Part shown: positions 2,915 to 46,839 of the stretch, piece after piece
Layout: each line of letters opens with the position of its first letter
Numbering within the stretch: the first letter of the stretch is position 1
Assembly: GCA_015956445.1 (NCBI GenBank)
Contig: WIUZ02000008.1
Span: 1,674,001 to 1,738,000 of the forward strand
Source of the DNA: Thelephora terrestris
Lineage: Eukaryota > Basidiomycota > Agaricomycetes > Thelephorales > Thelephoraceae
Reading direction: 5' to 3'
Length of the DNA stretch: 64,000 bases
Translations under genes and position numbers: made by a program
The notes under the pieces: model-generated
What the model was told of the DNA's origin: nothing
What the model saw: the letters and a program-made list of their open reading frames with translations, nothing else
Database searches by the model: none

Positions 2915-5900
2915 ATGTTTCTGGCGTCGTCCACCGCGGCCCTGTGCTGCCTCTTGACCCTCCTGGGCACTGTCGAGGCCCAGAGCTCAAGTCCGCCCTC
3001 ATCCACCGCCGGGTTCCCACCGAGCAGTGTCATGTCCCCTGGGCAACCTCCGCCAACCAACGGTTTTTCTAAGCAAGGGGACGTTCTCAAACCCACTATC
3101 ACGCCATATACCTTTGTTCCTTTCCCCACTCCTTTGGAAAGTTCAATTCCTGTCGTTTTCCCTGAAACATGGCCAGACAATCCTCCACCCGCCGACGACC
3201 CAGCAATCCCTGACTTTGGCCCCGCATGGGAGAACGCATACAGTCAAGCGATGCAGATGGTCAGTAGCTTCTTGGAGCCATTGCTTCTGCTTCCATGCAA
3301 ATTGTCACCTGGGTATGCGACTATCTCAGGTCCAGAATCTGACGCTCGAAGAAAAAGTTAACATCACCACTGGTGTCGGATGGATGAATGGCCCTTGTGT
3401 CGGGAACATCCCTCCAGTCAAAGACTTCCCTGGACTCTGTTTGGAGGTATACGCTCGCCTTCTTCCTCGCCTTTTCCCACATATGCTGAGGGTGCTATAG
3501 GATTCTCCACTGGGAGTCCGATTCACAGATTATGTCACCGCGTTCCCCGCAGGGATAAACTCCGCCGCAACGTGAGGACTTCGATTCTCACCCCACATTT
3601 CATCTCAAAATGTCCGTAGATGGAATCGAAGATTGATGCGCGAGCGCGGCAAGGCGATGGGAGCCGAGTTTGCTGGCAAGGGTGTCAATATTGCTCTTGG
3701 GCCAGCCATGAATATGGGAAGACTTCCCCAAGGTATCACGCCCAGGATACTTGATCATACAACACCCACTCACTCTCGTATCACCGACAGGTGGTAGGAT
3801 CTGGGAAAGCTTCGGCGCCGATCCGTTCCTGGCCGGTGAAACTGCCTACGAAACCGTTCTTGGGCTGCAGCAATCCGGGGTGCAAGCCTGCGCAAAGCAC
3901 TGGATTAACAACGAACAAGAATACGGTCGGGAGCAGTCCACATCCCAGGTCGATGACAGGGCTCAACATGAGATCTACGCCTACCCATTCTTACGATCCG
4001 TCATGGCCGGTGTTGCCGCCATCATGTGTAGTTATAGTAAGTGATTTACAAAACCCCGTGTGAGATGAATGGTCTCACCTTTCTAGATCAAATTAACTAC
4101 ACTTACGCTTGCGAGAACGACAAGCTCATGAACGATGTGCTGAAACAAGAATTCGGATACCAAGGACGTGGGTGATGCATCTGTATAATTGCCTTGAAAC
4201 CCCACCAACTCCCTCACGTAGTGATCATGTCTGACTGGGGAGCAACCGAAAGCACCATCTCCGCAATGACTGGTCTCGACATGACCATGCCCGGTGATGT
4301 CTCGTTTGAGTCTGGTGATTCGTATTTCGGGGGGAACCTGACAGTTTATGTCAACAATGGTACAATTCCCGAAGCTCGTGTCGACGATATGGCTACTCGG
4401 TACGCATTTTGAGATCCCGCTCACCATTTCCGTTCACTCAAAACACATGCACAGAATTCTTGCCGGATGGTACTTCCTTGGTCAGGACTCGGGGTATCCA
4501 GAAACCAACTTTAACGCTTGGCTACCCCTGGATGACACCAAGAATAAGCACATCGACGTGCGAGGTGACCATTGGAAAATCGTTCGCGACATTGCTACCG
4601 CTAGCATCGTTCTTTTGAAGAACACAGGATGCGCCCTTCCGCTCAAGAAGCCCAGGAAAATATCTGTCATCGGCTCTGATGCTGCTCCCCCAAAACTCGG
4701 CCCCAACGGCTTCGCTGACCGCGGAGGGACCGACGGCATCTTGGCCATGGGCTGGGGATCAGGAACTACGAACTTTACATACTTGATCTCGCCAATCGAA
4801 GCCATTCAGGCGCGTGCGGTAAGAGAGGGCACCGCGATCGACTGGCATTTCGACGACTTCGACCTTGGCGGCGCGAAGAATGTCGCTCTTGGAACCGACG
4901 CAGCTCTCGTATTCATCAAGGCGGATTCCGGGGAAGAGTACATCGTAGTTGACGGTAACGTGTGTTTCGGAAATCTCTCCTGCAGTTCCGAGTCTACGAC
5001 TAAGGATTTCCACTCAAGATCGGAGATCGCAAGAACCTGACTGCTTGGTCAAATGGCGACAACCTGGTCAAAGCGGTGGCCAGCGTACATGAGAACACTA
5101 TCGTTGTCGTGAACTCGGTTGGACCACTCATTGTAGAATCCTGGATCGACAATCCCAATGTGACGGCTGTAAGCGATCAGAGGCTTCTTTTTTTCTGACA
5201 TCCGAATCCATCGTACTGATTAGACATTTCCCGGCCATTCAGGTCATCTGGGCAGGGTTGGGAGGATCCGAAGCTGGGAACGGCATCAAAAATGTTCTCT
5301 ACGGAGACTACAACCCAAGCGGCAAGCTTCCATATACCATCGCTAGGAATGCTTCGGATTACCCGGCTAAACCTGTATCTGGTCTTTGGACACCTAACCA
5401 CCCCCTCGTCATCCCGTATACGGAAGGGTACGTTCTCAGAGTCATCCAGATAGCGCGCTCCGAGTTTACTCACCAAATGCCTGTAATCAGACTCCTCATC
5501 GACTATCGGTGGTTTGATGCTGTACGCTGCAGGTCCCGTCATCCGCTTGTGGCAGCTGTCGCTAACATCTCTCATATCAGAAACAAATCTCCCCGCGATT
5601 CGAGTTCGGCTTCGGGTTAAGCTATACCACTTTCGCGTATTCCAACTTGGTCATTCAAAAGCTCAGTTACGGAGAACAATTTCCGGAAGATGCCGTCTGG
5701 GACTCCGGTATGACACCCTCTACCAATGCCACCGGAGCATCTAGGGCGATCTGGCTTCATCGTCCCGTATACTGCGTTACTTTCTACGTACAAAACGTGG
5801 GGGATGTGGCCGGAATTGAGGTGAGTTGAGAGGACCCCGTACCCGAAGGCTTCGCCGAAACAAATGCCTGACCATATCGTGCCAGACCCCCCAGTTGTAT

Positions 5901-6122
5901 TTAGAATTCCCGCCCTCTTCCGGGGAGCCTCCGCAGACGCTCAAGGGCTTCACTAACGTGCCACTGGAGCCCGGCGAGATCCAACAAGCGCAGATCACCA
6001 TCTCCAAGTTTGATCTTTCTTATTGGGATATCGTCGGTCAGGGTTGGAAGAAACCCGACGGGACGGTTGGCGTCCTTATCTCGCAAAGCAGCAGGAAAGT
6101 CATGCTGCAAGGGAACATTTAG
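2915..6122 (+). CDS. secreted GH3 family beta-glucosidase
   Basis: Glycoside hydrolase family 3 enzyme that should cut terminal beta-D-glucose from cello-oligosaccharides or other beta-glucosides outside the cell. The ATG at 2915 opens a signal peptide (MFLASSTAALCCLLTLLG, cut near VEA-Q) and a Ser/Pro-rich linker. Then come LTLEEKVNITTG (about 3330), the substrate-loop sequence CAKHWINNEQ (about 3890) and the nucleophile in IMSDWGATES, whose Asp codon is at 4233-4235. The second domain includes ASIVLLKN (about 4600) and WAGLGGSEAGNGI (about 5255). The C-terminal fibronectin-III-like domain starts near FGFGLSYTTF (about 5610) and ends with the stop at 6120-6122. About ten short introns break the gene, for example around 3260-3330 and 4033-4086. 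All hallmark motifs are present, so it reads as intact. It has no partner genes nearby that would define the sugar substrate. Confidence 0.92.
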
Positions 6123-9100
6123 GAGGAGTTCTTAAAGTAGGATCCGTTGGACCTTGTTCGTCAGTAGGGACGCTTTACTTCGGACCTCTCGTTTGCTTCG
6201 GACCTTGTAGGGGACCTGTCATAACATGGTTTCCATGGACCCAGTAGCTGGATGGCACTCGTCGTCGAAAAAATGTACAACGCTTACCCGCAAAGAAGCC
6301 TGGAACATTCAGGATAGCATTTCATTAGTAAAAGATGTGACGTGAGTCCGACTGGATGTCGACCAGTGATCGGAGCGTTGCGGTTCGCCTTACCTTTAGG
6401 AACCGCTCAGAAAAACTGTCCTCCGGAATCATTCAGTGTGCTGGGCCTCTAGAACCCCTCCATGCGTTGAACGAGAACGTTGGCCTAGAGTGCTGCAGAG
6501 TGTCACTCTCGGCGACATCATCTCAGTCTCCGAGGTGCGTTCCTGTTCTCTTACAAAATGTAACTGGGGGTCTGCTACGCTCTCCACGGAATGTGTTGCA
6601 ATCCGTGAACAGGTTAATTGAAGGCCTGCCTCTGGATATTGTTTCTTATATCGCCCAACGCGTCCTAGGGAACAGCGGGGTTTATCGTTCCGCCCGCAAA
6701 CGTATCCTAAAGCTGGGACGACGGAGTCCGTCGTCTCGGTGCCCGGGGTCGGGCTTTGTTGTCCAGCCCGTGGACCGCAATCCTCTCGGGTCGAAAAGCG
6801 ACCCCGGGCTCCAAACACAGTGTGATCGTCTGGTATATCCTTTCAAGCCACAGGGGACCTAACCAACGCTATTCCGACAATCCGACAATCAACGCTCAAT
6901 CCCCAATCATTCACCCTCACGATCTTGGGCGGGTCGGCCGGAGCCGCTCATACTTTTCTGAGGAAAGGTACGTGATCTGACGTCCCTAGTCTTGCCTGCG
7001 ATCCTCAGCTTTTGTAGAATTTTTACCATTCGATCACAGCATCCGACTCCACATCGGCATTCTAAGTCTTTCGAGAACCACTGCTCTAGAGCGGAGATTC
7101 AGAGGCAAACTTTGCAGAACCTTTCCTCAGCCGTTCTCGACGTTGATCACCGATTGTGAATGGACCTCAAGATCTGTTGGTCCCGGAGGGAGCATCTCCG
7201 CCTTCATACCAGGAACGCGGGCCTGCCCTTCTGAAACTATCGTCCCCCATCTTCGTTGAATATCGATTCTACAAAAGATACATTCAATTATTCGGTCCGC
7301 ATTGGAGTTTCCACGAATTTTGGTTCTCCACACGCTCGCATCTGTCCCTTTCTCCTTCTCTCGAGGCCCTTATTATCAATCGTCCTTCAAGCATGGCATC
7401 CCTGTGACCCGTTGAGTTGTCAGATCTCGCATTGTCTCCCCCATCGATACCATGGTCCGCCGCAGTTGCTCGTTCAGCTAGACATGGTCGAGAGCGGAGG
7501 TCATTTATTGGTCAAGGGGTAGCGGAAGGAAATGACCACGCGTCGTGGAAGCGGGGGCATAATGAATAGGCTGCTGGGTAGCAGCGTTGTGGATTCTGGC
7601 TCAAGAAGTCTTTGCAGAAAATTGTTCTCCATACCGTTAAAGTCCTGGCATGTAGTATCCCTATACCTGGCACCGATGACTTTTTCTCTCTCTGGCACCC
7701 TTGAGTAGTTGTACTCAATGTTGCTAGTGCTTGTATCGTTGGTAATCTTACCATATTGTATGTATTTTGGTATACTAGGCCTAGCTATCAAGCCCGTGCG
7801 TCACACGAACATGCCCATCGACAGTGGTCACATGCGAGCGAGGCGCAGGAAGATCTCCTCGGGGCGTTACGGATAATCAAGTACACATCGTCCTAAATGC
7901 TGTTATGTCGTTCTCTCCGTTGCTCCATTTACTAAACGTGTTACAGCGGGCTGGCGATAACCGTGGATCGTAATGGTGGTACTTGACTACCACGACAACC
8001 GTTAGCAATGATCGGCTTGATAATATATCACCCACAGGTTGAGGTTTACCATCTTTACCACTCAGACGGGTCATCGCGATACGTTGCCAGAGGACGCTTG
8101 CAACCATCATCATTTGCCCTGCTTTTTACACACCAGGACCCAGTCTCAACGCTTCAGGCCCAATGCAGCGTGTGTCCACGACGGAAGCGGAGCGAAGGTT
8201 GAAGTCAACGAAACATTCTGGCTTCGAGCTTCGAGTTTCTTGCAAAGAAATTTTCACACGAACCCTCCTTTCCAAACTTTAAGCTTGAAGTAGATTGACG
8301 GAGAAAGGTAGGGTATGGTCCGGTGTCAGCTTCAACGAGGGGGAGCACTGCCGCACCGACAGAAGCTCCTGCGAGACCGGAGGGATCTGTAATCATATCA
8401 GAAATCTTATCGGACGGATATATCTTACATCGCAATCAGAGCCGACTGAAAGGCGAGCGGTGAGTACGGTTGTGAAGATGACACAGTTACGGATTGTTCG
8501 AGGTCAAGCGAACAACGTCGATCGCGAAGGACGTCGACAAGGATCATGATAGGGTATGATTCTGATGAACGCGTGAGGTTAAATCGCGAGATGAATCCCA
8601 GGGCACTACACGACGGTCAGAGCTGGTAAGTAGATGCGAGACGCTTCAAGGTGTCAGAGGGTATCTCAGTACTTAACCATCACGAGATGTGACCCAGGTG
8701 TATCAATCGAGCCCAGTAAATCTCACCCACACGAGGTGCCCTTATCGCGGACATACGTCCTACTAGGTGCATGCGTATCCACTACACGTGGCGGGACTCC
8801 CAGGGTCCAGGAGTGCTAGTGGAGCCCAAGTGATTGAAGATACCAAACATGATCCGGGCCGACTACCGATGTTTGGGCCGGAGGTTCCATTTCTGAACTG
8901 GTGGAACTTGGTGGCAGACAGAAGGGGATGTGTGATTACGATTATCGATGTCTAGCGCTTGGAAAGAAGCAGGCTAGGGCAGGTACCTGGTGTCGTGGGC
9001 GAAGAGGCCATGACCTCCGGGATCAGTACTTCAGTACGGCAGTCTGGGTGATGGAAATAATGGGAGGGTGACTGACTCGGCGCTGCGGCAGATTGTTCGT

Positions 9101-33506: not shown

Positions 33507-36052
33507 AGCTGGGGAGGAAGGGGAGAAAACCGACAAAGTGCCTCATCGCGACCCAGACCAATCCATATAAATATTGGGATATGTGGATAAGCAGGGATAA
33601 AATCGCATTGTTCGGGATTATTTGCAAAAGTGGGCGATACTCAGTAAGGGAAAAACAGATGAAACAGTCGAACAAGATGGGGGCGTGTTTGTGCACGTTT
33701 CCCCGGCGCTTGTCACGTATGACGAGAACGCCGGTTGCGTATGGCGAAGGACGGAATGGACCTTTTAGTTTGTGTCACGCTGGAATAATCTCCCAGTGAA
33801 TGGGGCTCGTCACCAACGTCAAGCGGAGAAACGTGATCAGTTTCTCCTGCGAGAGAAGCGGCAGCGAAGAATCGTCAAGAGAGACAAAAGATCATGGTCC
33901 TGGCGCACGAAGGCAGATCGCAAACACCGAGGAGAAGGAGCGCGGAGCGGGCAAGACTAAGCCCCGGAGCGGCTTTGTCCCACGAAGAGTAATGGGAAAT
34001 ACAAGGCAGCCGCTCTGTAAGCGCCTCGCTGCCGCGTGGGGGCATGCGGAACCATCGTGGCGCTGCCGGTGACTGAAAGCCAGAGCGCAACATTGTGCGG
34101 ACCACGGCATGCAGATGAGCCTGATCTTGTGGTGATCCGCGATAAGTCCTCTCCAATCGGGAATGGTCGGGCTAAACCCGAAGACGTGCAAAAGCCAACT
34201 GGAGGTTTTCATTTCTCAAGGTGTGTGGAAAGGAAAAGATTAGAAAACGAGGCCTTGCCCCATCCAGCAAGTGCTCACCGGCGGGTAGAGTACGAGTACG
34301 TAGTTCGCCCGTCCGCGTCAAGCGTCGAGCCTAGTGGCGCTACGGAAGTTCAAATGCGTCGTTCAAACTTCAAAGGGTCTCGTTTCTGGAAGATGATCGT
34401 GCCAGCACAAAGCGGGTTGGGACATTCCTCGGCATCTCCCGTCGGGTTGGGGGACGGAGAACCCGAAAGAGGCCAGACTCGAATTCGTATCTGTACCCAA
34501 GGATGACGCACGCTGTTACTCCGGAAAATAGGATGTCACCTTCGCAGCTCACTAAACCAGGAACCAAAGTGCGCATTCGGGCTCGAGGAACAACACGGGG
34601 TCAGTTTAGGTAGGGTTTCAAACTTCACAATCTGACCAGGATACTTTGAACGCTTTCTCCAAGAAGGGGATGCGTGTCCTGTGAACAGATGTCGTTTTCC
34701 GTTCTGCCATGACTATCCCGTGCCACCCAATTGCGCCATCCCCCCCCCTCGCATCAAGCACAGGTCTCTTATCTTGTATGCCAAACAAACGCGGTCGGGT
34801 TGAGAAACTGAGGCCGGCAGTGATCCTCCCTTCGAGTGAATAGGATTCCGAAACGGATGATGCAAACAGGGCGAGCCGTGCAAAAATCTTTGGAACCCTC
34901 GAAATCATGCAACTTCGTGATTTGGGCGTGGACGGACCCGCGTCGACTGTTTGTGACCAACTTCGGAAAGCCTCAGTCGTCGATGTCGAGGAAGGTTTCC
35001 CGGTTGGTGGCGTTGGGGTACAGGCTGGTTGCGTGACTTGGTGCTTCACACGACAGAGGCTCGCGGACTACACCCCAGAGTTCAAAGAGGCACGCCCAAC
35101 CTTAGCAAAGGAGCCGAGACTAGACCTATTGATAGAGCTCTGGAAGAAAATCGGCGTTCTCGCAGATTCGAAAATGGCGACCGGCCATACATCAGGAAAA
35201 CTGGGATCGATATGTATGCGCTTGTAAATGCCACAGGCGAAGGGAGATCATCCATTCGCTAACACGCGTGCATCCAAATTGGACGCACTTGCAGCCCCTG
35301 ACGGTGGCTTGTGGCCCCTGGTGGTGGCCTGTAAGCGCATCCACGAAACAATATACCTGGGCACAAAAAAAAAATACTCGGCACGGCTTTCCAGCCCGCC
35401 GCAGCCGATTTACGAGCGATCATTCAATGAGCCAAGTGGGGAATTTACTGTATTCCTCGTGGTCACGCTCAACTAGCCTAGCTTACCATAATGATGTTCC
35501 TACTCGCTCGCCCTCTTCTTTCCACACACAGCTTTCCTGTCCAGCGCTGAACCAAATAGGGTCCATACCAATTCATAGATCGCAAACAACCACCCACTGC
35601 ACCCAGTAAGCGATGTCTAGAGAAGGATAAGTTAGCGGCGTTCGGATGCTGAATGATAAACGTTATCGAGGGGCGAACTCATCTGACAACGCTCGACCGA
35701 ACCTCTTACGGACCGCTTCGGAAGTTTGAACCTTGGTGACGTCAGCGTTCTGCGGCCAAAGACAATGAAATCACCCGCTCGATTTGATGAGGGGAGACTT
35801 ACCACATCAGCTGAGAATGGATGGTTGAGGGAAAGTGCGAGTGGACTAGAGGGACAGTTGGTCCCACCAGATGGTGGATGAGGTCTAAGAGAGATGTTGC
35901 TCTCCGATCACGAGAGAGGGTGTTTATAAACACCCTTAGTCCCTTACACAAATAATAGTCAACAAAATACCCAATATTGCTGAGCATTGCGGACCCCTGT
36001 CTCGAGTTTTCTGGCGAACGACCTCATCGTCCCTCTGTCTCATCGAGAGAGC
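33507..36052. other. gene-poor stretch left of the transposon
   Basis: About 2.5 kb. The right end of this stretch is the original upstream flank of the gene now starting at 45327 and contains a palindromic TATA box. The rest holds only short frames without recognised motifs, several of them long merely because stops are sparse on both strands. Confidence 0.45.
35923..35930. promoter_or_regulatory. palindromic TATA box
   Basis: TTTATAAA inside a GTGTTTATAAACAC palindrome. It lies about 130 bases before the transposon insertion point, which itself is at the start codon of the gene continuing at 45327. It probably served that gene before the insertion. Confidence 0.4.
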
Positions 36053-36060
36053 GTCAGAAT
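36053..36060. repeat. left target-site duplication of the 9.3-kb transposon
   Basis: GTCAGAAT, exactly repeated at 45321-45328 on the other side of the element. Confidence 0.85.
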
Positions 36061-36094
36061 AGGACCCCTGACATCGGGTTTGGAGGCCGGATCC
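36061..36094 (+). repeat. left terminal inverted repeat
   Basis: Begins AGGACCC and contains GGAGGCCGG at positions 22-30. Compared with the reverse complement of the right end (45287-45320), about 23 of 34 positions agree, including the first seven. Short, imperfect inverted ends are common in P and related superfamilies. Confidence 0.75.
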
Positions 36095-36267
36095 AAATCT
36101 GCGTCGCCATGTCCGGATTCGCGCGATGTTTTGTCCGGACTGAGATCCGGCATCTGGACTGGGAACTGCGCCCATGTCCGGATCGGGATCTGGCCATAAT
36201 ACCGCGACCGCTCATCGGGAATTCGCTCGAAGTACATTGGCCGTACAAAATCAACAATAAAGATCAG

Positions 36268-38302
36268 CTACTCTTCGTACTTATGTAGTGCATCCTTGAT
36301 GAGTTTCGCCGCCTCCGACATAGCCTCAAACTCCATCCAATCATCTTGTGACACTTCAGCAACCTGGGTCGTGTTCACCTTCACGGCGGAACGGAGGCAC
36401 AGGAGAAATAGTTTTGGAGGTAGCAACGCAAACTGCTTTGCGTGTAGATGGGAGGTTTGGGGAGGAATATGAGTGAACCACCTGGAATGAGAATGTCCGA
36501 AGATTTGAAGCCCGATGTTCGATAATGCGGTGATACTTGACGAGTCGGACACAGCCGCATGTTTGCCGTTTTTGCCACCAGATTTAGAGTACAAACAAAT
36601 GACTGATTATGAGGTTTAAACATCGGCCGCGGGATGAATCGAAACGACTCGCCTTGGGAAAGAGACACTTCATTGTCAAAAAACACCCAAGCAAATCTGC
36701 CGGGGGTAAGGGGGGAAAGAGAATTGACCCGAGCCGCTGCTATCAGGTTGTGGTATGGAACTCGTGCCTGCTTAAACCTTTTCAATCGGTAGTCGGTCGC
36801 CTAAAGTTTCGTTAGCTTATGGAGGAGCAAAAAAACGGACACGAACCTTCTTGTGTTTTAACGTGGCAACAGCGGCAGCATTTGCTGAGTTTCCAGTCAA
36901 AGCGGGTGCTGGCCCTGAGTCCTCTGTTCCTTCAGATGTCTGCCAGCGTAGTTCGCGACCTTGGCCTGTCCCTGTGGCACGGGTCTGGTCCTGACGAAGG
37001 AGCGCGTTCATTTCTCGGATAAGCTTGCATCGCATGGACTCGCCAGCCTTGTTGGTTTCGGCCGAGTCCCGAGTACGAACACCTTCAGCTGCGTGTCGAG
37101 TCTGGTGCAAGCGTCGCAATTCCACCAGGATCGAAAAATCATGACTTCCGCCTCCCAGGATCCTGAGGTCATATGACTCCGAGATTTCATCCTCAAGAAC
37201 CAAGGCAGGCAATTGGATCCTCCCATTGACGAGCGCGGACAATCGATTGTATTCTTCAACCATGGCCTCGGTCTCGGCATCGTCGTCTAGTTCGGGAAGC
37301 CGTTGTCTAGAGATGCATCAGTAGTCAGCGCCATGATGGTTACATTGAATATGTGACATACATTTTCATGAATTCGTCGGCGGTAATGAGAGCTGCAGCC
37401 TTTGCAAGCGGTAAAAATCCTTCGGTACCCTCTTTTTCGGCCTCGGAGAACAGGTCCTGGAGCTGTTGCGCTTCAGGAACTACACTGCTGCCTTCGTCCT
37501 CATCTTCATCCTCGTCCTCGTTCTCGTCCTCGTCCTCGTCCTTATCTGCAATGAGGGTTGTGATTGGTGGAAGCTTGGCTGGTAAATCACCCTGCAATCG
37601 CTTTGGTGAGACACCGAGAAGAGCCAAAAGGCTTTCGGCCTCATCAGCACCCTCCTTCGCAGCGGCGTCAATCTCGTTGTCACTTGGGAATGTGGAAAGG
37701 GCAGGTATATTGAGACCTCGTGAATCGAAATGGGTGTGGTTGTATCCGTTCGCGGTTGCCCTGGGATCCGATCGTGCACGTAACATTGTTTCGCGAATGG
37801 TGACACGTAGTTTGGGAACCATATAGATGAAGTCCAAGAAACAGAAGTCTTCTATGATTTGACGGGCCTCGCCAAAAATGTGTTCGCATTGTTCGGTTGA
37901 GTGAAGCCATGGCAGAAGAGGGTTTGTGTTGTCAGGATTGCGCAAATGGTCTCGGTAGATGTAGATCAAACCAAGCAATCCCTCGATGACTTGACGAAGA
38001 ATGTCAGTGGCCTCGTGAGACAGGAAGTGATGCTTTTTCTTGTACCCAGCACGTGCAAGAAATCGTTCCCAGGAGTCAAGGAAATACCTTGCCCTCAGGA
38101 CCATTTTGATGCGTTCACGGTGGAATATGGATCGGTTTTGGTACGCGTCGATGAGATCTCCAAATACAAACAGATAAACAACCTCCCCCACACGATCTGG
38201 GTAGTGGCTAGTGAGGTACATGAGTGTATCAGCGGAAAAGAGACGTGATGCCGCATTGTCGTCCTGTCGGTCCAGTTTCTCAACGTCACGACGATAGAGG
38301 GG
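36268..38302 (-). pseudogene. C-terminal part of the split P/THAP9-like transposase
   Basis: Continuation of the gene starting at 44908, cut off by the nested insertion. It opens with LYRRDVEKLDRQDDNAASRL and has ELIDAYQNR-like FGDLIDAYQNRSIFHRERIK and RARYFLDSWERF. The probable third acidic catalytic region is PWLHSTEQCEHIFGEARQI (about 37870), reminiscent of the Glu-containing block of P-element/THAP9 transposases. An acidic Asp/Glu tract (about 37496-37545) is encoded by an imperfect hexamer run. Further exons (RLSALVNGRIQLPALVLEDE; RFKQARVPYHNLIAAARVNS) lead to the stop at 36268. Apart from the insertion the frame looks well kept. Same strand as the N-terminal part. Confidence 0.75.
38298..38302. 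repeat. left 5-bp target duplication of the nested insert
   Basis: AGGGG, repeated at 41238-41242 directly after the insert. Confidence 0.7.
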
Positions 38303-41237
38303 TGTCAGGGCCACTCTTCGCCCTTCAGGTACCAGTGCTGTTGGTGAGTCGCAACTCCAACCAACAAGAAACAATGGGGCAAAGGGGGAACGACTTCCCT
38401 ATATCCACCCAAAGTCTACGTGGTCCAAAACGCGATGGACGAGCGTTCTCCGGTAGGTTGTCCGAATTCACAGCAGGAGTGCCGAGCCTCTATCAGGTAA
38501 ATCCCTATCGTCTTCTGAGGGCAGATACAGGAGCCCGAGGATGGCGCCTCAAACTGATGACTTGATCCAAAGAGCAGTGCGGAACTCGATGTCGTGTCCG
38601 AGCTCGCTTCAAACACCGGTTAAGGATCAAGACTGAGTGAGAGAGGAGAGCGAACGGTTCAAGGAGTTACTCGATAAGCTCTTCAGTGGCCTACAGCAAA
38701 TACACCGATGCTGCAAGGAGAAGAGGACTTCCCGAGATATCAAAGATGGGGAGTCCTCAGCTACTCTACTGGTACTTATATAAGAGAGTGGCCGGGACAT
38801 AGATAACCCTATCTAATAATAACTCGGAACAAAGAAGGGCCGAGAGTAAGCACGAACAGTAAGCGGCCCGGAGTACAGAATTGAAATGATAAAAGAATGA
38901 CTAATGGGTCAGGGTTCGTGAGAGAATAAGAAAGGGGTCATGACGTCGTGTGGGAAAGGAATGACAAAGGATAATATCACATGCAAGGGTGAACCAATGA
39001 GGGGACGACGCGTCAGCTCGTCCGATCGGGACAACAAAGGACCGAGTGGGGCGCGAATGTCGAAGGCGAATGTATGAGGAGTCTGGACCGGTGAAACGAT
39101 GGGCCGAGCCAATGGCGGATAGGGCGCGGGCGCTGTCGAGGGTCGAATAAAGCGTAGTGCGACCGGCCATTGGATCCATCAAACTCCCTTCTTCCCAAAT
39201 CAACAATCCCACCAACCAACTTACTCATCCATTATGCCCATGATCTCTGATCGTGTCTTCCGTGCTGAGAACAGCACCGCTACCATCGAATCTGCGGATC
39301 CGCGCTCCGTACAGAACAAGAGTTACTTCCTCCCGAACGCCAACGTGGCGTACCCTAGTTATCGCGAGGTGCGACGTCACGTGTCGCTGTTTGCTGGCAA
39401 CAACTGACATCGCATCGTAGATCTTCGCAGTTGCCGACAAGGTGGATGCTCGACAACTGGAGGCGACGATAGCCAAGCCTCCCAACTACTTGACCATAGA
39501 CGACGAGCTGTGGTACCACAACTTGATCGACCACAAGTTGCAAGAGTCTATGCGCGGGGTCACGTTTGACACCGAGTTGCGTATGCCATGGGAGACTCCG
39601 GTGGCGTCATCTTTGTGGGGTCTTTTGAAGATGGGAATCTACGATCTCGGAAACGGCGAAGGAAGGTGGCCGGGGGCGACTCGTTCGCAACACTATACAG
39701 CAGCCGTTGGTCACCGTCTCTGGTTCCTTTTGAGGACCGAACAGAAAGCGGTGAGTCGGTCTGTGCATCCCGCTTGTGGGATAACACTGACAGGCTTGTA
39801 GAATGAGCGGCTGAAGCGTGAGGTGAAGGAAGCGAAAGATGATGCCCGTAGGATGTACTCGGAAGCGTTGGACATGAAGAAGACGCTGCTCCTGATGAAC
39901 GATTCGCTTCGCGTCACGTTTGAGAGCGAGATGCTGGCGATGCGTGAAGAACACAATCGGTTGGTCGAGTCCTTGAAGGAACGGGATGACACCATTCAAC
40001 GAGACCTGATCGAGGTCGACCGACGGCTCAATCGTCATAGAAGGGCGCTGAATGAGCTCGACACCAAGGTTGGTGCGACTTCTCCTGGTCTTTGCCCAAG
40101 AGAGCTCACGCCATTCCTAGGTCGATACGTTGGACGACGCTTTGCCTTTGTTGGGCGCTCGAGTCGAATCGATGAGCGAGCGGTTGTGTCACTGCCGTAC
40201 TCGTTCGGTAGCTGCGGTTCGCGACGAGTCCGAGGATGAGTCGATACCCGATCGGATGGCTTCTCCCATAGGTGGGATGTCGGTTGACATATTTGGCTTG
40301 TCCACTGACATCTCTTCTTAGCTTCCGATGGGTCGTACCGCACACCTGCGCATACTGATGGCGGGGAGGAGGTCGTTCGCGAGACGTCCGAGGAGACGGC
40401 CGTGAATCCGGTTAGCAGTTCTCCCGAGTTGGAGTACGCGGGGGAGAACGAAGTGGCTGTTCCGATCCCGCCTCCGTCGATCTCGCCGGTGCGTGGGCAA
40501 CGTTCTATCCGTGCTCGTCGTTGGGTTCCTTATCGCGGGGCACTTCGTCCAGCGCACCGCATGCGTCCCAGTAATCCCGGCGTTGTCCGCCAGGGTGGAG
40601 ACATTGAATCCACCGTCCTATTCCGATGCGACGATGCTACAGTGTCGCGTGGATCGCGGCGAGCTGATTCCGGTGGAGTCCGTCGACGTGAACGGCTTAA
40701 CCGACCTTACGCTCTTGTCGGTCCAGCGTGCAGCGGAGGCCGTTCGCCTGGTGGCTCAACTGACCGAGAGAGTGGAGGGTTGGTCAGTCCAGAGGACTCT
40801 GGATCAGACTATGGTCAATTCAGCGAGGAACCGCCTTCGCGCCGAGGTTCAGTTGGCCGTCGCTCATCGTCTGGAGGAAGCTCGGGTCGTCGAGATGGTC
40901 GACGAGGAAGTCGACGAGAATGCCTCGGAGGGGATGGAGGAGGAGGTTGCCAGTGCTGAGGAGTACTGGCAGACCAGGTCTTGACGACCAGGGTTTGTAC
41001 GCCTTAGTCCTCGTCCATAGAGTCCGGGCGGATTCAACTTCGTCGGTTTGGTAGTCTCGTATCTTTGCTGCGCGCCTTGTGTAATATCATCAGTGTCCTT
41101 GTCTGCGTTCCTTTTGATGACGTGTGAGTCGTGATAAGGGAAATGACAAAACAAGAAAGGGGTATAGGTAAGGAAAGTGGGCGAAAGTTGGGTGTGAAAA
41201 ACGGTTCAAAAAGGGAATAAAATTCAGCACGCTGACA
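38303..41237 (+). mobile_element. 2.9-kb nested insertion, class unassigned
   Basis: Starts TGTCAGGG and ends CGCTGACA, so the ends match as a short inverted repeat (TGTCAG plus one of two further bases). It is flanked by a 5-bp duplication AGGGG. It interrupts the transposase gene between GSP and LYRRDV, in a place where one copy of the duplication alone restores codon register across the site. TG..CA ends with a 5-bp duplication recall LTR-type insertions, but I see no long terminal direct repeats at its ends, so a TIR element is equally possible. A TATA-like box (38777-38785) and one multi-exon gene (39234-40984) lie on its plus strand. Confidence 0.7.
39234..40984 (+). CDS. coiled-coil protein carried by the nested insert
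   Basis: Not recognised. The ATG at 39234 starts MPMISDRVFRAENSTATIES. At least six exons with GT..AG introns are readable, for example 39367-39420, 39751-39801, 40069-40121 and 40486-40550, all in frame. A middle segment is a strong coiled coil (LKREVKEAKDDARRMYSEAL, MREEHNRLVESLKERDDTIQ, DLIEVDRRLNRHRRALNELD). The C-terminal part is acidic (VEMVDEEVDENASEGMEEEV). The N-terminal globular part contains NYLTIDDELWYHNLIDHKLQ. No transposase, integrase, reverse transcriptase or capsid hallmark is visible. It could be a cargo gene or a structural/DNA-binding helper of a non-autonomous element. The total length is about 500 residues. Confidence 0.65.
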
Positions 41238-41242
41238 AGGGG
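41238..41242. repeat. right 5-bp target duplication of the nested insert
   Basis: AGGGG, the partner of 38298-38302. Confidence 0.7.
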
Positions 41243-44200
41243 GGAACCGTTTGCGAACGCGAGATCACGGATTGTCGAATAGAGCATCGTGTAGTTTCCG
41301 AGCGTCAGTAACCGTGCACCCGAGAATAAATTATTTCGCAGGGTCTTTAGAGCATGCTTTGAGTCCTGTAGGAGGGAAATTGGCTGGCCGTTGAAAACCG
41401 GAATGGTAATTGTTGTGTCTGGCATTCCTCGTTGGGGACTCTTGATCTTGTATTGTAAGCGTTTACCGGCCCCGTTCAAAATCTCCCGCTGGACCCCCCG
41501 TTCGAGCCCGGTGCCATCACAGGAATACGAAACGGCCTCGATTTTTTCCTTGATCAAGCCACAGAGGATCTTCTTGAGGTGCGGCACAAGGGTGTGGTGT
41601 TTCTCACTGTCAGAGATCGGGAGAACCGCAAGGAGGATCGGTGCAACGCCGTCCACAGGAATGGTCATGCACCATAGGCGAATCTGGATGGGCCGTGGTC
41701 ATCATCATATCGTACAATGAATAATCATTAAATTACCTTGGTAGCTTTTTTGGTTTTATCATCTCTTAATACTTCTTGAGCCGCATCGACATCGGGTACA
41801 CAGATCGGTCCACTGCAAGCGCCAACAAGGAAATAGCACTTCTTCTCCTTGTCCCAGTATAGGCGAAGTGCTGCAAATAGTTTTGTATCATCGCAAGCAA
41901 GCGCGACGGGTCCATGGTAGTCCAACACAGCGAGGTGAGCTTTGGCAAGTTCAAAGGTTCGATCACAGATATCCATCGGAAAACGGGGCTCACGGGCCTC
42001 CTTGTGACTGGATATAAGTGTTCAATAACATTGTTGGTGAGGATAAACCGAGAGTAATTAAATACCGAAAACTCCTCGGGGTGCGTGCGGGGAAGTAACT
42101 CCTGAGGATCCGATATGCACGCGGACTGACAATGTAAATGATATGGCAAAGTTCGTCCCAGGCTGGAGCATACTTGAAGTTTTGTAATCCGACGCCACGC
42201 TTCGTTTTGTCAAGATCGGTGCACATCGCCTCGAGCAAACCATTGAAAACTTTGTTTTTTATTTTCCCGCTTAGGATGGCTTCTGCAAACTTGATGCACG
42301 GCGTAGAACTTCCATCCTGAGATACATGATCAATCGAGTGACGTAGGAAGCCAATATACCACTCACTGTTTGTTCAATTATCGCCCGAAGTCCTTTGACC
42401 TTCGTGTAGAGGTGTTTCAGGTCAGGGTGGAGGTATTGCGTGTTTGTGAACTTCAAGTTTTCGTCCAGGGGCATCGGCTTGCGAATCGCGTCGGTAAAAG
42501 CTTTGAGATTAAGCAAGGCTTCGCATTCAACACAAAGTGACGATGCGAGCGAACGGCTTGAGGTGAATAACTTGCATTTCCTCGAATGGACCCGAGCGTT
42601 GATGTGATCGTTGGTCCACCTCCATTCCGCCCTCTGTGTCATCTGAACTTCCTCCCTCTGAGCACGAGTCAGATATCTGAACTCTTTCTTGAACCGTTCC
42701 CTCGAGACCACATGGATGCTTCGCCCGCCTCCACCGCCCACCCACGTTCGCTTCAAATAACGATCAATCAATGTGTTGTCCATTGCTGACGCCCCACGGC
42801 AGGGCATCTTTCTGACGTCTTCCACACCTTCCTCTCTCTCGCTCCTTCCTTCGTCCTTCCCATCGCCACTCGTCCTAGCTTCCTTCTTCACCAACCAACC
42901 CATTCCCATCAATGTCCCATGCGCTGGCACCGGCTTCGCCCGACACATCTCGCCATGCTGTCTGAACCGGGTCGTATCACCAGGTTCTTTGGTGCGTAGC
43001 CAGGTGGAGCACCTGCTGTGGAAGACTCTCATAGGATCCTTCTGGTCAAACTGAGCGCTTGGATCTAGGTTCAAAATCTTTGCCTTCCATGTTTCGAACC
43101 GCTTTTCCTGAACGACGTAAGTCCTGGAAGTGGCTTTCTCCCTGAGTCTTCGTGAAGCGATAGCTGATCTGCTTGTTCCGTACTGAGGCTTCTGAGACTT
43201 GCAACTAATTTCAAGATGCTGGAAGGCGTCCGTGGCGGCGATGTTGCTAACGTCTGAGTGCCGGTTTTCTGTAACCTTTGACTGCGCCTGTTTGTAGGAC
43301 ACCCTCGAGACCTTGCGGGCGGGCGCGATTTCATCGAACGGGCTCAGCGATAGCTTCCGTTTGTAGGGCAGAGGCCTGGAGTCTTCACCCGCGTCAGTGG
43401 AGGCCGTTGACGACACAGTCGACATGGCGGGAGTATCGGCCTCACTCGCCAGCAAGTTTTCATCCCCATCGGCCTCGTCACTATCGCCGCCACGGTCATT
43501 GCCGCTGCTGTTGACATTGCGCGTACCGCTACTGTGGCTGCCAGCACGACCGCTATCGTTGCAGCCGTCGTCACGATCAACTCGGGCGCACATCTTGGTT
43601 AACGGCTCAAGTGCCTATATCGCAGCAGATGTAAGTGCACCATACATGCTTAAAGCAGTCACGTCTACTCACGGGGTCCCTGGGGATAGATATTCCTTCG
43701 TTCTCACTGAGTGTGAGAAGCCAGCGAATTCGGTGCACAGATGCATCTTGGTGTGTCCAAAGAGGATCACCGAAGATTCCGTGACCAATCGTGCTCATCG
43801 TGCAGATCGCGCAACTGTAAGTATCAGGTTGGCGCGGACGTTGAAGCACATTCCCGATGTTCATCAGCTTCGAGCTAAACTGCTGATTAAACCATTTTCG
43901 TAGTCCCTTCAACACTTCGTCTGGGGGAGGCGCGGTTCCCGAGGCGGCCAGCGAGTCTCCTACTGTAAGTCAGTTCCTCTTATTTTGGGTTGCATTCAGT
44001 GATAGCTTACCAAACGCGAAGGTGCACTCCTCAAAATCCACCTTTCCAGCAATCCAATGGCACCCATTTACATTGACTGGGAACCAGATTGAGGTGACCC
44101 CATTCTGGACCTGTTCCGCCAGTCGCAAGAGGTACGGCGAAGATCCCGGGTCGGTGAACCCTCGACCGACAGCCTCAAGCTCCCAAGTGAACTCGATTGG

Positions 44201-44908
44201 CTCAACAAGGACCTCTTTGCCAGTATCGACGTCCGTTTTCAGGCGGTTCTGTAGGACCCTGATCATCATGTTGATCTGCGTGTCAGATAGCCAGGATGCA
44301 CCGAGGAAGCCCGCGAACTCGAGGGTGGTTGTCCCTCCCAAACGCAGCGATTTGTTCCACGGAAGCTCATTGATGAGATCTTTTGCCTGCGCAACTACGT
44401 TTTCGGGGTGAGTACCTGATTCCAACCAACGGACAGACGACCTCCATAGCTTCTGGTGCTGAATCATCTTCTCCGTTTCCTTCCAAAGCGACATGACCCA
44501 AAGCGGAAACCTCTCGGTGCCGTTATTGAATCGTGGGTCCACGATTGAAGCTGCGCCATCAAACCACTTCTGGCCGAAAGCGTTATCAAGAGTTTTGAGG
44601 ACCCTCTCTGGCGGGACTGTCCGAGTGAGGAGAATTTCTGGGGGTGTGGTGGGTGCATCGGTGCTGAACCATTCCCCAGTTTGGTGGAAACTGAGGGCGC
44701 CGGACTGAAGGGGAAGGGGATGCTCGATAAATTTATTGACAAGAGCAGTTGGAGCGGGGAGTCGCGTTCGAACGGGCTCGGGGATCTTGAGGATTTCTCG
44801 TTTTTTCTCGTAGACCTCATTGGGGAGCGAGTTCGAAAAAACCTTTTTGACCCCTATCCAGACTGAGGGGTCAAACTGGATTTTGACGGTGAGGTCGATA
44901 GTAGCCAT
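41238..44908 (-). pseudogene. N-terminal part of transposase: Ulp1-like protease plus DDE core
   Basis: The ATG at 44908 begins MATIDLTVKIQFDPSVWIGV. The first exon ends in a Ulp1/C48-type protease: VNVNGCHWIAGKVDFEECTF (His near 44060), GDSL, then QPDTYSCAICT (nucleophile Cys near 43810). A Ser/Asp-rich nuclear-type region and a basic stretch follow. The DDE-type core then begins: APAWDELCHIIYIVSPRAYR (about 42150), GPVALACDDTKLFAALRLYW (first Asp, about 41890), VSYSCDGTGLERGVQREI (second Asp, about 41510) and QDSKHALKTLRNNLFSGARL (about 41350). The gene stops being readable where the nested element enters. A SUMO-type protease joined to a transposase in one gene is the notable feature. Protease and transposase are on consecutive exons with good splice sites, but a single transcript is inferred. 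Confidence 0.78.
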
Positions 44909-45286
44909 AGGGGGAAAATAATCGATACTCGGGAACCTCTAGCTTTAGGCACGCGCCGCGAATGACTTCCAAATTAAAGATATCGATTATCGGATTCAAA
45001 CTTTGTTACAAAACGTGAGGGGGTTTCGTGCTGACTACGATACTACAGAGTAGTTAGAATGCTTGCTATCTCGTCAACTACAGTCTGGCGCCTGCGTCGA
45101 CCACCCGCGAAAATCCTCGAAAATCCTACCTCCGTCCGGACTTTCGCGCCGGCTAAGGTATACTCCGAGACCCAAACGTCCGGATTCCCGCGCTGGCTAG
45201 CGTGCATTTTTGGGTCGAAATGTCCGGATTTTCGGGTCGTCGGGATCCGGCCTCAAGGGCAAAAATCACCAAAATGTCCGGATTCT

Positions 45287-45320
45287 GGCGCCGGCCTCCC
45301 AGCCAACTTTCCCGGGTCCT
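45287..45320 (-). repeat. right terminal inverted repeat
   Basis: Ends GGGTCCT on the plus strand, with the inverted GGAGGCCGG word inside. Partner of 36061-36094. Confidence 0.75.
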
Positions 45321-45328
45321 GTCAGAAT
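45321..45328. repeat. right target-site duplication of the 9.3-kb transposon
   Basis: GTCAGAAT, identical to 36053-36060. Its last two bases form the first two bases of the ATG at 45327. Confidence 0.85.
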
Positions 45329-46839
45329 GCGCAACCGGAAGAAGTTGATAAAGCAAAAAGTACGTAACGACTGACTCAGCATCGGCATTTACTCATGTGC
45401 CCGGTCGCAGTTGCTCCGGAATAGTCTCCGGGATGCAGCGGCAGGGATCAAGCGAAAGCCGACCATCCCACAGCCAGTACGTGTCATCTCGTTCAGCACC
45501 GGTATCTTCCCAACGCCATCCACCAGCAACGGCCATCCCACCATCCCAATACTAGTACACGAGTTGCCCCTGCCACCACTTCAGCTGCCACGCAGAGTCC
45601 CCAGCGCGCCCACAGGCGTGGTCCCTTCCGCCTCGGCAATTGTCCACCGTTCCCAAATCCTGAGGTCTTGGGGGACACACCAGAGCCCGAGTACGAACCC
45701 GAGGGCATAGAGGCTGATCCCCAGTACACCGGGGGTTGCGAGAAGGAACTCGAAAACAACGACTGTTCGGACCCGGATGAAATCAACAAGATGGAATTTG
45801 AAGACCGCGCTATTTGGTTGGGAAAGTGGTTTGCGCACCACTACGCCGCGTGGGTTGAAGACTTTGAGATGAAGGAGCTACAGAGCTATCCGACCTCCTC
45901 CTCTGTGGGGATCCAGCGAGCGATCAACGTCGGTCCACTCCCAATGCTCGAGTGTACCTTCGCCCGCTTTCGGCTTCTGGAGGATGAGTGGCGAAGTCCG
46001 TCGTTTTGCTCTCCGGTACGGACTTATCTATCAGCATCGAACCTTCCTCACGTCTCTCGAGTTCCGACTAGGCCTCAGGCGCTTTCGCAACGAGGTGGTA
46101 TCAACGGTCCGCATGCATGCAATCCGCATCTTCGGCATCACCGACATTGTGACCATCGACCATCGTGACGAGAGCCAGCAAGTTACCGCGCTATATACAG
46201 ATAACAAATTCCTCTACGAGCATGGCAACACCGGCTCCATCGGTGACTTTATGAGGAGCGACTGCTTAGTTAAGGAAAGTGTTTTTTGGTTGATTTTGAG
46301 TGACCCTGAAACATTTCACAGGCTCTTCGAGTTATACTTTTTGGTCCAGCTGCCCTCGACGGCCCCGATAAACAGAAATCCCAACATGTCCGTGCTCCGT
46401 TGTTCAATGTCAGAACCGTGAGGAACACACTCGTTTGTTTCATTGCCACTGTAGTAAGTAAATATGTGTAATGTTTGTTGCACGTAGCTGACCGGCAACA
46501 TAGTTATGGTTTCTCCTTGTTGACGGCAGAGTCTTCCGTGACAAGGGCACAAAGGAAGGGTGCAAAAAGTACTACCGGGATCGGATGATTCAACTCAACA
46601 AAGTTCAAGTCGAGCTTCCCGATATATACAAGGCTTATCAAGAATTTATGGACTGCAACGTGTTCGGCAAGGACGAAGAGGAGGCGCTTGATGCAAACGA
46701 GGAGATGCAGAAGGAATACATGGATAAATTCTATGCCGACGTTGAGAAAGAGAAGGAACGCCGGAGGAAGGGGAAGGCGCGTGCAGAAGATGTGGCCTCT
46801 CCCACCAATTCCACTAACGGTTTGGAGGAGCAGGACTGA
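45327..46839 (+). CDS. hypothetical protein whose promoter was displaced by the transposon
   Basis: Not recognised. An ATG at 45327 gives MRNRKKLIKQK, a short basic first exon ending at a GTACGT donor (45360). The second exon from about 45425 is Pro/Ser-rich (TASTCHLVQHRYLPNAIHQQ) and then acidic and aromatic (MEFEDRAIWLGKWFAHHYAA). Later exons carry RRFALRYGLIYQHRTFLTSL, DIVTIDHRDESQQVTALYTD and a charged helical C-terminus (YMDKFYADVEKEKERRRKGK), with stop at 46837-46839. One internal frame change near 45980 needs an intron I could not place with certainty. It ends 17 bases from the stop of the convergent Plavaka transposase, so it may belong to that element. The transposon boundary coincides with its start codon (see findings). 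Confidence 0.5.

Follow-up and report, generated by a model that had tools for sequence, protein, structure and literature searches.

A DNA transposon family of Thelephora terrestris with a predicted Ulp1-type protease joined to a P-like transposase core

SUMO recurs in transposon silencing and in DNA repair. P elements generate 8-bp target-site duplications. Ulp1 domains have been reported in Ginger1, in MULEs and in oomycete Cryptons, and passages of these reports propose, without test, that the transposon-borne proteases have roles in transposition or repair (PMC2836005, PMC3212892). Within the KDZ (Kyakuja-Dileera-Zisupton) group, passages of PMC12730594 describe 8-bp duplications in Zisupton and in Zisupton-1_PGr, a family of Dileera, and 7-bp duplications and a lack of inverted ends in Kyakuja. 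The same source offers a parallel in the TET/JBP enzymes of fungal transposons, which may counter silencing. An N-terminal Ulp1 domain combined with a P-like core was not found among the papers listed, at the level of titles and abstract openings. A term search in a fungal co-option screen (PMC10799480) returned neither Ulp1 nor SUMO nor KDZ.

Here we analyse a stretch of 64,000 nucleotides from Thelephora terrestris (contig WIUZ02000008.1, positions 1,674,001 to 1,738,000), called the window below. All coordinates without a locus or contig name are those of the window. Further copies were sought in the genome from which the window comes (40.6 Mb, 60 contigs).

Element borders, genomic copies and the nested LTR

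The segment 36061-45320 is a DNA transposon bounded by matching inverted ends and an exact 8-bp duplication. Both features had been noted in the first-pass annotation and were confirmed: GTCAGAAT stands at 36053-36060 and 45321-45328, and both ends begin with AGGACCC facing inward, forming repeats of 35 nt with 71% complementarity. In a repeat search of 35900-45500, these ends made up the longest inverted repeat, 9190 nt apart. An additional subterminal repeat of the TGTCCGGATT type was observed by repeat search near the left end, at 36100-36119.

36053..36060, unstranded: target-site duplication, left copy GTCAGAAT; at these borders other copies carry exact 8-mers of their own, all different
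36061..36095, plus strand: left terminal inverted repeat, AGGACCC...GGAGGCCGG..., from the repeat-search pair; matching ends in L028-L030
38303..41237, minus strand (gag-pol strand of the full copy): nested solo LTR of 2935 bp, foreign to the transposon
45170..45295, unstranded: subterminal repeats around TGTCCGGATT, right end (repeat search, families D3, D4 and D9)
45286..45320, minus strand: right terminal inverted repeat, at the 5' end of the gene, from the same repeat-search pair
45321..45328, unstranded: target-site duplication, right copy GTCAGAAT, read directly

The right-hand 240 bp of the element gave eight matches in the genome. A part of the transposase gave 11 matches at 10 places, and the identical 10 places were recovered with a divergent relative as the query. 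The borders were then surveyed in the window and 13 further loci. Copies of the kind sought in the first-pass annotation, with common borders and exact 8-bp duplications, all different, were found at 7 of these 14 places, namely the window, L028, L029, L030, L032, L033 and L039. The seven duplicated 8-mers, GTCAGAAT, CATACGGT, GTTCTTCA, ACTCCAGT, AATCAGGC, TCATCACC and GCTAAGCC, are little alike, with T at position 3 in five of them. No exact 8-bp duplication was found at L031, L034, L035, L036, L037, L038 and L040.

The 1454-bp copy at L039:871-2324 is much shorter; it has the family ends and carries an exact duplication of its own, GCTAAGCC. Since its similarity to the full-length element is confined to the ends and part of the 3' exon region, it looks like a non-autonomous derivative with an internal deletion.

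The copy L028 (contig C5, 6299 bp) has its own exact 8-bp duplication CATACGGT and is uninterrupted where the window element holds 38303-41237, with 99.7% and 98.7% identity on the two sides. The inserted segment starts with TGTCA, ends with TGACA and is flanked by a 5-bp duplication, AGGGG, at 38298-38302 and 41238-41242. As this nested LTR is absent from the near-identical L028, the transposon unit is about 6.3 kb long and the window copy is broken; the initial description of a complete-looking 9.3-kb transposon is not supported.

The window LTR has at least 44 matches in the genome, some of them paired about 8.8 kb apart. The pair on C12, with GTTTT at both outer flanks, encloses a frame matching the Pfam domains Integrase_H2C2 (E 1.8e-22) and Chromo (3.5e-12); there the integrase core is slightly below the Pfam cut-off (28.4 vs. 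32.6 bits), and a gag-like frame is near it (23.9 vs. 24.1). Nine of the 11 LTR loci read have their own matching 5-bp flanks, the remaining two being the C12 pair. We identify the segment 38303-41237 as a solo LTR from a chromodomain retrotransposon of the Ty3/gypsy type, nested in transposase exon 6. The window copy was disabled later, when a retrotransposon that is now reduced to the solo LTR inserted inside a transposase exon, and no full protein is expected from this copy. In L028 the defect is a different one, a break of the reading frame in exon 6. At L037, a related transposon end extends from position 930 onward and an LTR copy occupies 3900-6823, less than 3 kb apart. This LTR is 89.7% identical to the window LTR and has the duplication ACCAC.

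The solo LTR also contains a spliced gene at 39234-40984 (plus strand), antisense to gag-pol. This gene is strongly constrained. Compared with the L037 LTR, exon 1 has a pN/pS of 0.06, exon 2 of 0.07 (8.5 nonsynonymous vs. 38.5 synonymous changes) and exon 3 of 0.02; wherever the ratio can be computed for the other two frames, it lies far above these values. The C-terminal part, for which the exon model is uncertain, has pN/pS 0.55 and no clear signal. The three introns checked are of the GT-AG type in all 11 copies, except for one GC donor. Exon 2 was scored at 150 places in the genome (568 candidates), irrespective of whether they lie in LTRs, and 139 of these are stop-free. No Pfam match above the cut-off was found for this gene, and it may be more novel than the protease-transposase fusion.

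Gene model and the Ulp1 domain

The transposon was initially thought to contain one long minus-strand gene. The strand and the quoted motifs are indeed as described; however, the gene consists of nine modelled exons and is interrupted within exon 6. The coordinates of window exon 1 were transferred from L028, where its length is equal.

44011..44908, minus strand: exon 1, with the start codon, the N-terminal region, the beginning of the Ulp1 domain and the codon of the catalytic His (44057-44059)
43673..43962, minus strand: exon 2, remaining Ulp1 domain; Gln at 43829-43831, catalytic Cys at 43811-43813
42367..43614, minus strand: exon 3, acidic linker of low identity, then candidate zinc-binding motifs
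42066..42316, minus strand: exon 4 (spliced alignment)
41737..42007, minus strand: exon 5, first catalytic Asp candidate (CDDTK, 41887-41892)
41238..41683, minus strand: exon 6 upstream of the LTR, with the second Asp candidate at 41516-41518 and the DSKH motif at 41354-41365
37362..38302, minus strand: remainder of exon 6 downstream of the LTR, with a helical insertion region and the candidate for the catalytic Glu (CEH, Glu at 37883-37885)
36847..37306, minus strand: exon 7 (spliced alignment)
36653..36800, minus strand: exon 8; its boundary with exon 9 is less certain
36268..36602, minus strand: exon 9 and stop codon (spliced alignment)

Exon 2 may start at 43959, as there are two acceptors 3 nt apart, and the later one yields the GDS of the relatives. 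Spliced alignment gave nine exons and introns of 45-65 bases in L028-L031. In L032-L034, whose identity to L030 is about 33%, both protease introns and most core introns are retained, but an additional intron is predicted within exon 3 and the models differ towards the 3' end. In some relatives the modelled gene is free of stops and frame breaks, and the predicted protein has about 1750 residues. Among the others, L029 has one stop and L031 one frame irregularity at the last intron, the model of L034 is poor at the 3' end and for one core intron, L035 contains a stop and yielded no protease part, and L036 is a degraded fragment.

The gene models support the fusion of protease and transposase proposed at first reading. 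The two parts occur together at 8 of the 10 transposase places (the window and L028-L034), with protease identity down to 22%. They are separated by a phase-0 intron, 51-79 bases long, which every one of the seven modelled copies (L028-L034) has at the corresponding position, and the window reads alike. The stretch from protease to core is stop-free in L030, L032, L033 and L034, as are exons 1-3 of the window.

The assignment of the N-terminal domain to Ulp1/C48 is supported by PF02902 (Peptidase_C48, curated cut-off 20.7 bits), which scores 30.1 bits in the window element when read through the intron. The score is above the cut-off in L030 (21.1) and in the L034 fragment (31.7), and below it in L032 (15.9). 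A scan of the genome gave 13 matches to this model, four of them within the transposon family and all four above the cut-off (30.1 bits in the window element and L028, 27.8 in L029, 25.3 in L034). A profile of the protease alignment matched yeast Ulp1 (1euv, E 8.5e-9), ChlaDub2 (2.7e-5) and SENP1 (0.0011) in PDB. The active-site His, Gln and Cys are invariant in all seven aligned proteins; the Asp is present in five and replaced by Asn in L032 and L033. We read this domain as a predicted N-terminal deSUMOylase, with a SUMO-type modifier as the presumed substrate.

The protease is under purifying selection, weaker than that on the core, since its dN/dS is 0.10-0.19 in the three measurable pairs: 0.185 (L028-L029), 0.181 (L030-L031) and 0.102 (L032-L033, a rough value with dS 2.8). 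The other three of the six pairs compared are saturated in the protease. Elsewhere in the gene, where measurable, dN/dS is 0.081-0.118 in the core, 0.257-0.349 in the linker and 0.196-0.293 in the N-terminal region. Amino acid identity between L030 and L032 is 0.22 in the protease and 0.43 in the core.

Further Ulp1-like frames of about 200-450 residues were observed outside the transposon family, at C58:1291017, C58:1295908, C23:2007223, C27:64303, C12:3227929 and C18:27493. Two of them form an inverted pair with equal scores. Some of these frames may be host genes, and some may be further transposon-borne proteases.

The transposase core and candidate zinc-binding motifs

The core was originally likened to P-element and THAP9 transposases. 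The order and spacing of the motifs agree with this, whereas profile matches are absent and confidence in the structure models is too low for a judgement. Motif and spacing served to assign the three catalytic positions. In six relatives the layout is CDDTK - 107-110 - D - 49-51 - DxxH - 92-94 - D - 85-88 - E, that is, the order D-D-DxxH-E with an insertion before the Glu, 49-51 residues from D2 to DxxH and 228-231 from D2 to the Glu. The corresponding spacings, computed from the positions given in PMC8230255, are 73-36-105-87 in fly P (D2-E 228) and 70-40-105-94 in human THAP9 (D2-E 239). With regard to the GTP-binding insertion domain of the P superfamily, an invariant Asp was observed 85-88 residues before the Glu, at a place similar to Asp444 of fly P, 87 before the Glu. 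However, the D-D-DxxH-E order is not P-specific, because C/DxxH is also common to hAT, Dada, Kolobok and MuDR.

An hmmscan of the core with E up to 10 gave no Pfam match, and a search of PDB with the core profile gave none either. PF21787 (P RNase H) matched neither the core (E up to 10) nor anything in the genome, and this model matched no controls either, so that its silence carries no information. The hAT C-terminal dimerisation domain PF05699 has four matches in the genome (E up to 0.01), none of them in the family. Two structure models have mean pLDDT of 48.4 and 49.2, and a comparison of the first with known folds showed no transposase in the 50 rows listed.

A THAP-type zinc finger, judged by the pattern of the THAP finger, was not found. 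Instead, two candidate zinc-binding motifs are conserved, HCHC (H-x2-C-x17-H-x3-C) and C3 (C-x13-C-x2-C), with invariant residues H606, C609, H627, C631, C744, C758 and C761 in L030 numbering. Pfam gave no match in window exon 3 (E up to 5) or in the piece of L032 with the zinc motifs and the core (E up to 10). From motif order and spacing, we read the core as P-like, and do not place it in a named superfamily.

Proposed mechanism and comparison with known systems

The most probable reading is that of a mobile P-like lineage with a fused N-terminal deSUMOylase aiding its own movement, the window copy being disabled by the LTR. The zinc-binding motifs would bind the transposon ends, and the DDE core would cut and join these ends with an 8-bp stagger in a cut-and-paste reaction. 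The tethered protease could detach SUMO, or a modifier resembling it, either from the transposase itself or from proteins present at the transposon ends, and this removal might help transposition or lift silencing. The N-terminal protease, the purifying selection and the open copies about 33% identical offer a route to testing a self-carried deSUMOylase in transposition. A bolder variant, which we put forward tentatively and doubt on balance, is a separate superfamily-level lineage with a P-like catalytic layout, in which the built-in N-terminal SUMO protease would deSUMOylate chromatin or repair factors at the element's own ends. If it is true, a single polypeptide would govern both silencing and transposition. 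The probabilities given to the rival readings overlap, as the rivals can hold together.

One rival is a self-processing polyprotein, where the Ulp1 domain cleaves the long protein and releases the transposase in the manner of viral cysteine proteases. The N-terminal protease is followed by an acidic, faster-evolving linker suited to cleavage (dN/dS as above in three measurable pairs). On the other hand, Ulp1 enzymes cleave after Gly-Gly at the end of the SUMO fold, and no Gly-Gly column is common to the six aligned proteins, the best columns having it in four; nor did Pfam match a SUMO-like domain in the pieces scanned. Self-cleavage, suggested in the first-pass annotation, is less likely because the di-glycine is not common to all six proteins. 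This evidence against it is weak, and we regard the reading as unlikely.

The protease could also be a captured passenger, or a relic with no role in mobility. It evolves faster than the core, as the identities between L030 and L032 indicate, and its Asp is replaced in L032 and L033. However, it is retained at all transposase places except the degraded L036 and the stop-containing L035, its His, Gln and Cys are invariant, and it is under purifying selection; we find this reading quite unlikely. That neighbouring protease and transposase genes were wrongly joined is conceivable inasmuch as the fusion rests on a gene model, but the matching phase-0 junction intron and a frame open across the junction in relatives about 33% identical overall make it improbable. 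Finally, a diverged KDZ element, of a group common in fungi, would share the 8-bp duplications of Zisupton and Zisupton-1_PGr, and is very improbable given that none of the 129 genomic matches to the KDZ profile PF18758, among those listed, falls into the 10 transposase places of the family, that hmmscan found no PF18758 match in the core pieces, and that Kyakuja differs in its duplications and ends.

Returning to the mobile P-like lineage with its own deSUMOylase, the family resembles KDZ elements in its fungal host, in the 8-bp duplications described for Zisupton and one Dileera family, and in carrying an enzyme that could counter silencing (TET/JBP in KDZ, Ulp1 here), and differs in that the KDZ profile recognises many places in this genome but not the family, among the matches listed. 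The protease resembles yeast Ulp1 in the profile match and in having His, Asp, Gln and Cys in register in the alignment, and human SENP1 in the profile match. Unlike both, it is transposon-borne, resides in a protein of about 1750 residues and has low sequence similarity to them. Ginger1 likewise has a Ulp1 domain within the transposase protein; in the passages describing it, however, this domain is C-terminal to an integrase-type transposase, whereas in the present family it lies on the N-terminal side of a P-like core. The Ulp1-bearing MULEs and Cryptons, as described in part of the cited reports, share a transposon-encoded Ulp1/C48 protease, and the Cryptons have a tyrosine recombinase in place of the P-like core.

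With the P superfamily (Drosophila P, human THAP9) the family shares the order D2 ... DxxH ... Glu, the D2-Glu distance (228-231 vs. 228 and 239) and the 8-bp duplication, which was observed here. It differs in the D1-D2 distance (107-110 vs. 73 in fly P and 70 in THAP9), in the N-terminal Ulp1 domain, and in being without a THAP finger and Pfam matches. The family may add a fungal branch near P elements. A DNA transposon carrying Ulp1 is ordinary; the order of the fusion, the type of the core and the sustained selection are unusual.
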